Part shown: piece after piece, positions 4,494 through 50,187 of the stretch
How the letters are laid out: each line of letters starts with the position of its first letter
Numbering within the stretch: the first letter of the stretch is position 1
Assembly (NCBI GenBank): GCA_943329845.2
Contig: CALQFM020000004.1
Span: 1 to 64,000, forward strand
Direction of reading: 5' to 3'
DNA from: Candidatus Kuenenia stuttgartensis
Lineage (GTDB): Bacteria > Pseudomonadota > Alphaproteobacteria > SMXS01
DNA length: 64,000 bases
Notes under the pieces: model-generated
The model's input: only the letters and a program-made list of their open reading frames with translations
The model's database searches: none
Told to the model about the DNA's origin: nothing
Translations under genes and position numbers: made by a program

Positions 4494-4575
4494 CCCGACA
4501 ATTACGCCTGCATGTTTGGCTGGACGCCGGGGGCGCACCGGTGTGAGATCGCGCCCGGAGAACAGGGGAAACCAC

Positions 4576-5310
4576 ATGCTGCTCAAGGGCCGGAATATCC
4601 TCGTTACCTTCGCGACCCATTGGGCCGGCCCGGAAATCTGCGCCGGCCTGATCGAGGAGGGTGCGTCGGTCGCGTGCCAGGATCCCGTCTTCGCCGACAG
4701 GACGCGGGCCGAGGCGTTCGTCGCCGGCCGTGCCAACCTCACCGCCATCGCCGATGAGACGCCGGCCGGGATCATCGCCGCCGCGCTGACGGTGCTGGGG
4801 CATGTCGACGTGCTGGTCAACAACGACGCCTTCCCGGCGATCCGCGCGCCGGTTGAGACCGCCGACCCGCAGGACTTCCGCGACGGCATCGAGGCGCTGA
4901 TGGTGTTTCCGTTCATGATGGCGGGCGCGGTGGTGCCGCACATGAAGGCGCGCAAGGCCGGCAAGATCCTGTTCCTCACCTCGGCGTCGGCGCTCAACGG
5001 GCTGGCCAACTATTCCATGTACGCGGCGGCGCGGGCGGGCGCCAACGGCCTCGCCAAGTCGCTCGCGAGGGAGCTGGGCAAGGACAACATCCAGGTCAAC
5101 GCCATCGCCTCCAACTACATCGAGAACCCGGATTACTTCCCGCCCGAGCTGCTGGCCAACAAGGAGGCCTACGCCAAGATGGTGAAGAATATCCCGCTCG
5201 GCCGTCTCGGCAAGCCGCAGGAGGCGGCGCATCTGGTGGCGTTCTACGCCTCGGACCGCAGCGACTTCATCACCGGCAACATCATGCCGTTCTCGGGCGG
5301 CTGGGCTTAG
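4576..5310 (+). CDS. Halohydrin dehalogenase-like SDR protein (Ser-Tyr-Arg triad)
   Basis: 244 residues with an SDR fold, but two diagnostic sites are altered. The catalytic motif is Y149-A-A-A-R153, arginine replacing the SDR lysine (TAC at 5020, CGG at 5032), and S136 lies exactly 13 residues before Tyr, giving S-x12-Y-x3-R. The N-terminal TGxxxGxG cofactor loop is replaced by T11-FATH-W16-A-G18, close to the T-x4-[FY]-x-G halide-pocket motif. These are the two sequence signatures described for halohydrin dehalogenases, which convert vicinal halohydrins to epoxides without NAD(P). Other stretches (VACQDPVF, EAL..FPF, Y-AAARAGANGLAKSL) also follow HheC-type enzymes. Length is typical for that family (225-255). 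Trp rather than Phe/Tyr in the pocket is unusual. The stop overlaps that of the convergent sulfotransferase. Confidence 0.8.
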   Translation: MLLKGRNILVTFATHWAGPEICAGLIEEGASVACQDPVFADRTRAEAFVAGRANLTAIADETPAGIIAAALTVLGHVDVLVNNDAFPAIRAPVETADPQDFRDGIEALMVFPFMMAGAVVPHMKARKAGKILFLTSASALNGLANYSMYAAARAGANGLAKSLARELGKDNIQVNAIASNYIENPDYFPPELLANKEAYAKMVKNIPLGRLGKPQEAAHLVAFYASDRSDFITGNIMPFSGGWA

Positions 5311-49008: not shown

Positions 49009-50187
49009 ATGACCGTTCAACCGTTCAAGGTCGCCATACCGGACGCTAGGCTTGACGAGCTGAAGCGCCGGCTGCGCAACGCCAACTGGCCGCATGACAT
49101 GGCCAATGACGACTGGCGCTATGGCGCCAATGGCGACTACATGCGCGAACTGGTCGATTACTGGCTGAACGGCTACGACTGGCGGGCCCAGGAAGCCGCC
49201 ATCAACAGTTTCAGCCACTACCGCACCGAGGTGGACGGCATCCCGCTGCACTTCATCCGCGAGCCTGGCAAGGGACCGAACCCGATCCCGCTGGTGATGA
49301 CCCATGGCTGGCCGTGGACCTTCTGGGACTACCACGAACTGATCCGGCCGCTGGCCGACCCGGCGTCGTTCGGCGGCGACCCGAACGACTCGTTCGAGGT
49401 CATCGTCATGTCGATGCCGGGCTTCGGCTTCTCGTCGCCGCTGATGCAGGCCGGCATGAACGCGTGGCGCGCCGCCGACCCGATCCACAAACTGATGACC
49501 GAGAAGCTCGGCTTCAAGCGCTTCGGCGCCCAGGGCGGCGACTGGGGCGCGACCACCACGGCCCAGCTCGGCCACAAATATCCCAACGATGTCATCGGCA
49601 TCCACCTCACCAGCACGCCGCGCCTGACCCACTGGGGCAACCAGCGGCCGTGGGACGTGACCGGCGGCAAGCTGGTGCCCGACGATCTGCCGCCCGAGAC
49701 CCGGGAGAAACTGATCGGCATCCAGCGGCGCATCGCCAGCCATGTGGCCGTGCACATGCTCGATCCCCAGACGCTGGCCTATGCGCTGCATGATTCGCCC
49801 ATCGGGCTGCTCGCCTGGCTGGTCGAACGGCGCCGCGCCTGGAGCGCCAATAACGGCGACGTGGAGCAGGCGTTCACCCGCGACTTCCTGCTGACGACCA
49901 CGTCGCTCTACTGGTTCACCGACACCTTCGTGACGTCGGCGCGGCTTTATGCCGAGGCGGGCCGATATCCCTGGCAGCCCTCCCATTCCGGAACGCCGCT
50001 GGTCAACGTGCCGACCGGACTGACCTATATGGAGCACGATGTGGGCCGCAGCCTGTCGACGGAAGCCGAGCAGCAGTTCGACGTGCGCTACCGCAAGGAG
50101 CATCCGATGGGCGGACACTTCGCCGCCGCCGAGGAGCCGGAAGCGGTGGTCGAGGACATCAGGGCCACGTTCAGGCCGTTGCGCTGA
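49009..50187 (+). CDS. Epoxide hydrolase (EHN-domain alpha/beta hydrolase)
   Basis: 392 residues. N-terminal EHN lid (MTVQPFKVAIPDARLDELKR) then an alpha/beta hydrolase core: oxyanion motif H99-G-W-P102, nucleophile D178 in AQGGDWGA, and H370 in GGHFAA near the end; the family's lid tyrosines are plausible in the middle. Opens epoxides to vicinal diols by an ester intermediate. Starts 51 bp after rnpB, and it heads a three-gene unit with a crotonase and a CoA-binding protein. No signal peptide, so it is cytoplasmic. Confidence 0.9.
   Translation: MTVQPFKVAIPDARLDELKRRLRNANWPHDMANDDWRYGANGDYMRELVDYWLNGYDWRAQEAAINSFSHYRTEVDGIPLHFIREPGKGPNPIPLVMTHGWPWTFWDYHELIRPLADPASFGGDPNDSFEVIVMSMPGFGFSSPLMQAGMNAWRAADPIHKLMTEKLGFKRFGAQGGDWGATTTAQLGHKYPNDVIGIHLTSTPRLTHWGNQRPWDVTGGKLVPDDLPPETREKLIGIQRRIASHVAVHMLDPQTLAYALHDSPIGLLAWLVERRRAWSANNGDVEQAFTRDFLLTTTSLYWFTDTFVTSARLYAEAGRYPWQPSHSGTPLVNVPTGLTYMEHDVGRSLSTEAEQQFDVRYRKEHPMGGHFAAAEEPEAVVEDIRATFRPLR

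Follow-up and report, generated by a model that had tools for sequence, protein, structure and literature searches.

A halohydrin dehalogenase-lineage protein with a genus-wide tryptophan in its pocket motif

Results

Gene and sequence features

The window analyzed here is a stretch of 64,000 nucleotides (contig CALQFM020000004.1, positions 1 to 64,000). On its forward strand, an open reading frame at 4576-5310 starts with ATG and encodes an SDR-fold protein of 244 amino acids, followed by a stop codon. The purine-rich AGGGGA directly 5' of the ATG is likely the ribosome-binding site, and the start position is shared by most relatives. The third-position GC of the gene (0.93) matches that of the neighboring genes, which is the codon usage of a real gene. 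A scan for promoters and terminators found nothing. The features are as follows; HHDH stands for halohydrin dehalogenase, and equivalent residues of HheC are given in brackets.

4564..4569, + strand: likely ribosome-binding site AGGGGA (read from the sequence)
4576..5310, + strand: HHDH-lineage gene (open reading frame, phmmer against solved structures, Foldseek, tree)
4606..4629, + strand: motif 1, T11-x4-W16-x-G18, the halide/nucleophile pocket loop replacing TGxxxGxG (alignment)
4609..4611, + strand: F12 (HheC N8), Phe/Ser specific to the clade (alignment)
4621..4623, + strand: W16 (HheC F12), codon TGG, which is TGG in 6/6 genus members (alignment, codon comparison)
4981..4983, + strand: catalytic S136 (HheC S132) (alignment)
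4990..4992, + strand: A139 (HheC P135), Ala throughout the clade (alignment)
5020..5022, + strand: catalytic Y149 (HheC Y145) (alignment)
5032..5034, + strand: catalytic R153 (HheC R149; Lys in SDRs), codon CGG (alignment)
5110..5112, + strand: S179 (HheC P175, which lies close to F12 in that enzyme), Ser/Ala in the clade (alignment, PMC11976700)
49009..50187, + strand: EHN-type epoxide hydrolase gene, a possible downstream partner 44 kb from the HHDH gene

HHDHs are cofactor-independent enzymes that convert halogenated alcohols to epoxides and back, and they are used for making chiral epoxides and substituted alcohols. The initial annotation had assigned the protein to this family on the basis of a complete signature. 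The residues that it named were all confirmed (T11, W16, G18, S136, Y149 and R153, the last encoded by CGG at 5032-5034), with the serine 13 residues before the tyrosine, and the nucleotide loop TGxxxGxG is missing, as had been claimed. The catalytic motif S-x12-Y-x3-R is present as S136, Y149 and R153. On the other hand, motif 1, the nucleophile-pocket motif, is published for the recognition of HHDHs as T-x4-[F/Y]-x-G (PMC4989007), and the window protein retains only its Thr and Gly, with Trp as the central residue. The signature is not complete, and the annotation contradicted itself on this point because its own text placed a Trp at the Phe/Tyr position. With Trp at this position, a screen based on the published motif would miss the window protein.

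The three classical features of NAD(P)-dependent SDRs, TGxxxGxG, NNAG and YxxxK, are all absent from the window protein. TGxxxGxG is likewise absent from all 61 HHDH-side sequences, and 39 of the 47 SDR paralogues encoded in the genome of the window have it. Both HHDH motifs occur together in 54/61 HHDH-side sequences, in none of the 47 paralogues and in none of 16 SDR controls, these last two sets sharing 7 sequences. Shuffling of the window protein produced both motifs in 18 of 20,000 cases.

Family placement

When the protein was compared with solved structures by phmmer, the best match was 6a41 (described as a 'dehalogenase', E 5e-71), followed by HheC, HheA and HheD2, and NAD(P)-dependent SDRs ranked below them. 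Pfam and NCBIfam returned generic SDR models alone, with no model at the cut-off among the best 25 NCBIfam models listed, which fits the earlier expectation that a general pipeline would name an ordinary SDR. An AlphaFold2 model built from an alignment of 37 relatives had a pLDDT of 95.8. In a Foldseek search with this model, 6a41 was again first (TM 0.97, rmsd 1.2 Å, 48% identity) and HheC structures were next. A second structural aligner agreed (6a41, Z 37.8); many SDRs still reached Z 32-33, indicating that the fold alone is not decisive and that the tree has to decide.

In the tree, 61 HHDH-side rows, which include the solved HheB, HheC, HheD2, HheD8 and 6a41, were separated from 16 ordinary SDR rows by a branch supported at 100/99. 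Placement among the NAD(P)-binding SDRs had been set beforehand as the refuting test, and its outcome was negative. These results bear on the explanation that the protein is a normal NAD(P)-dependent SDR with a chance resemblance to the HHDH motifs. Its overall fold is that of an SDR and the domain databases name SDR families only, but the closest solved relatives are dehalogenases, the three SDR features are missing and the split is strongly supported. We rejected this identity as contradicted by the tree and the motifs, and we give it almost no weight.

The window protein falls outside the HheB/HheD2/HheD8 clade (100/100). Its own side of the family, containing 6a41, HheC and an HheA-like plasmid gene annotated as haloalcohol dehalogenase, is supported at 90/93. 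Considering this support and the long branches of HheC and the plasmid gene, we assigned no letter subtype. The window protein belongs to the HHDH lineage, within the same part of the family as 6a41. Accordingly, the earlier family assignment is backed by tree, predicted fold and sequence, but the description of the family as rare did not hold: in the class, members were found in about 45 of 385 sampled genomes, and the family is not rare there. The protein is outside the published motif definition and inside the HHDH lineage by descent, fold, catalytic triad and lack of a nucleotide loop. It is best described as an HHDH-lineage variant rather than a proven HHDH.

Distribution and origin of the tryptophan

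The gene is present in 8 of the 10 genomes of its small family/order, its own genome included, and the other carriers are 60-92% identical to it. All six carriers in the genus of the window, again with its own genome, have Trp in motif 1 and TGG at codon 16; the other five are 78-92% identical to the window protein. The two carriers from sister genera have Phe. Across the 61 aligned HHDH-side sequences, the aromatic column of motif 1 contains F 41, Y 12, W 6, P 1 and G 1 times, and 22 more relatives from another order all have Phe. Outside the genus of the window, no Trp was found at this position among 83 HHDH-side sequences. The earlier guess that the Trp is unusual was right, and the residue is also real and lineage-specific. 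A pseudogene or a sequencing error behind W16 was ruled out by the TGG codon in six species and by pairwise dN/dS values of 0.10-0.34. The gene is under purifying selection within the genus, which indicates that some function is retained.

The branch leading to the genus has 0.32 changes per site. The Trp most likely had a single origin on this branch, to judge from its distribution, and was then retained. In HheC numbering, N8 to Phe/Ser, P135 to Ala and P175 to Ser/Ala are changes on the same branch. Phe enzymes, 6a41 among them, can also have Ser/Ala at position 179, and the Pro at 139 is likewise lost in Phe enzymes, so that these changes need not be compensation for the Trp. The aromatic residues equivalent to HheC 186/187 are retained in the alignment as Y187/F188.

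Staar and colleagues described the motif as highly conserved in nature and cited natural variation only at the threonine (PMC11976700). In the open literature, to which our search was confined, no report of a natural Trp in motif 1 was found. As far as this literature and the sampled genomes show, Trp at this position would be new in nature.

Other variants on the HHDH side were also seen. Many members of one genus in another order, that of G018, have Phe at the equivalent of HheC P175 and keep the motif 1 Phe (L178, L179, L183, L184 and others), which reads as another lineage-specific pocket change. Three genomes of family f97 contain a tandem HHDH pair (L155, 6783-8249; L156, 1147-2637; L159, 863-2337). 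One gene of the pair has S-x12-Y-x3-R and a Tyr in motif 1. The second, about 46% identical to the first, has S-x12-Y-x3-Q, with Gln in place of Arg, and has lost the motif 1 aromatic; it may be a partner subunit or an enzyme that catalyzes a different reaction. In three bacterial families (L164, L165, L166), HHDH-side proteins have Pro at the catalytic Tyr (S-x12-P-x3-R) with the motif 1 aromatic intact.

Genomic surroundings

The gene lies in a block with genes for a Rieske oxygenase, VOC, SnoaL-like, MipA, DUF445 and zinc ribbon proteins and, beyond the HHDH gene, a sulfotransferase, a VOC-like protein and GST. The block is mostly syntenic in the genus. The genes directly beside the HHDH gene differ in several species of the genus, for example in L129, where the neighbor is nicotinamide phosphoribosyltransferase-like by eye, and we therefore inferred no operon partner. 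The HHDH gene seems to be isolated. No gene for dehalogenation or epoxide conversion was found in an operon with it, and no partner was constant across distant relatives, where a glyoxalase-like gene and a few others recur in a handful of families. This agrees with a review in which only two known HHDH genes are said to have an epoxide hydrolase gene in their operon (PMC4989007).

Four EHN-type epoxide hydrolases are encoded in the genome, one of them in the window at 49009-50187, where it is followed by an enoyl-CoA hydratase-like gene. A plasmid origin of the window gene was considered and rejected; the only similar plasmid gene was a Microbacterium haloalcohol dehalogenase with 34% identity. 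On the Microbacterium plasmid NZ_CP089591.1 (L128), the haloalcohol dehalogenase gene has an epoxide hydrolase gene and a glycerol kinase gene as neighbors, which is the textbook arrangement, and transposase genes flank it; this looks like a mobile epichlorohydrin-type pathway. In two genomes of family f148 (L140, L148), the HHDH gene is followed within about 120 bases by another SDR gene on the same strand.

Discussion

We have shown that the window protein has HHDH ancestry, an intact Ser-Tyr-Arg triad, a lost nucleotide loop and a derived Trp, fixed in the genus, at a position that contacts the halide. The Trp is accompanied by additional changes that are near to it in the sequence or, in the case of P175, in the HheC structure as published. 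What the Trp means for function has to be weighed against the studied enzymes. In HheC, the aromatic residues that bind the anion are F12 and residues 186 and 187 (PMC5292711). Residue 12 touches the halide, and water or the hydroxyl of a Tyr12 lies close to P175 (PMC11976700). In saturation mutagenesis of HheC F12, the active replacements were Gly, Ala, Cys, Ser, Gln, His and Tyr, Trp not being among them, and HheG Y18 kept significant activity only with Phe; the main text of that paper does not mention F12W (PMC11976700). It appears that Trp was made in the HheC and HheG scans but was not reported as active in those backgrounds. The published mutagenesis argues that a bare Phe-to-Trp change is harmful in HheC, and an enzyme with Trp is accordingly not guaranteed to be a dehalogenase.

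On the one hand, the protein could be an HHDH of the usual kind, with Trp taking the place of Phe without functional consequence. Trp is, like Phe, an aromatic residue, the triad has been preserved, and the Phe-bearing sister genera are 60-62% identical. However, the Trp is confined to one genus, and mutagenesis showed activity, stability and selectivity to depend on this site (PMC11976700). Considering these points, we regard such neutrality as improbable. On the other hand, the protein could be an HHDH-derived enzyme that has abandoned dehalogenation, with the Trp filling the anion site and the triad performing other acid-base chemistry on another substrate. The missing Trp among the active HheC and HheG replacements (PMC11976700), the fairly long genus branch with its several pocket changes, the function kept under purifying selection and the lack of an adjacent halogen or epoxide gene are in favor of this explanation. 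However, neither the three catalytic residues nor the aromatic cage partners have changed, and the changes from Pro to Ser/Ala could give space for the indole. We consider the loss of dehalogenation possible but rather unlikely.

We therefore prefer, with a probability of roughly two in three, the reading that the protein is a cofactor-independent HHDH-type lyase in which the halide pocket has been rebuilt and which would still act on epoxides or halohydrins with an altered preference. By homology with HheC, Y149, aided by S136 and R153, would take or give the proton, and a small anion would leave or attack from the pocket at W16, in the former nicotinamide region. W16 together with Y187/F188 would form the aromatic cage, and the smaller residues at 139 and 179 may make room for the indole. 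In this case, the interconversion of an epoxide and a halohydrin, or another anion adduct, would be kept, with a preference for anion or substrate shifted from that of the Phe/Tyr enzymes. The epoxide product could be hydrolyzed by one of the four EHN-type epoxide hydrolases of the genome. A bolder statement, that the genus has a natural HHDH with a Trp-rebuilt pocket whose anion or substrate specificity is new to the family, or which performs a new non-dehalogenase reaction on the Ser-Tyr-Arg triad, has about even chances in our view.

The family itself is known, and the Trp in motif 1 may be described as an unusual natural pocket variant in an otherwise ordinary member, whose function we infer. 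A Trp kept throughout a genus under purifying selection, beside sister genera with Phe, represents a natural experiment on the rebuilding of the pocket. The window protein also shows that family members are missed by the standard motif screen.

Comparison with known enzymes

The closest solved relative, 6a41 ('dehalogenation enzyme'), is equal in length to the window protein and shares 48% identity, a TM of 0.97, S-x12-Y-x3-R, the NY[VI]ENPDYFPP loop, the GGWA C-terminus and a Ser at the 179 position. It differs in motif 1, T-N-V-E-K-F-A-G compared with T-F-A-T-H-W-A-G, and it keeps the Pro at the equivalent of 139. HheC from Agrobacterium radiobacter AD1 has the triad, no nucleotide loop and aromatic residues around the anion, with a TM of 0.92-0.93 and 38% identity, but it has F12, P135 and P175 where the window protein has Trp, Ala and Ser. 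Unlike the window gene, the HheC gene shares its operon with an epoxide hydrolase gene (PMC11976700). HheD2, HheD8 and HheB share the triad and the motif 1 scheme, with SASAL at the catalytic Ser in HheD2, but they form a separate branch (100/100), are about 20 residues shorter and have Phe or Tyr in motif 1. Finally, the sister-genus proteins (L094, L095), from the same bacterial family and 60-62% identical, have THFAG and THFVG, with Phe rather than Trp, and a Pro at the equivalent of 179.
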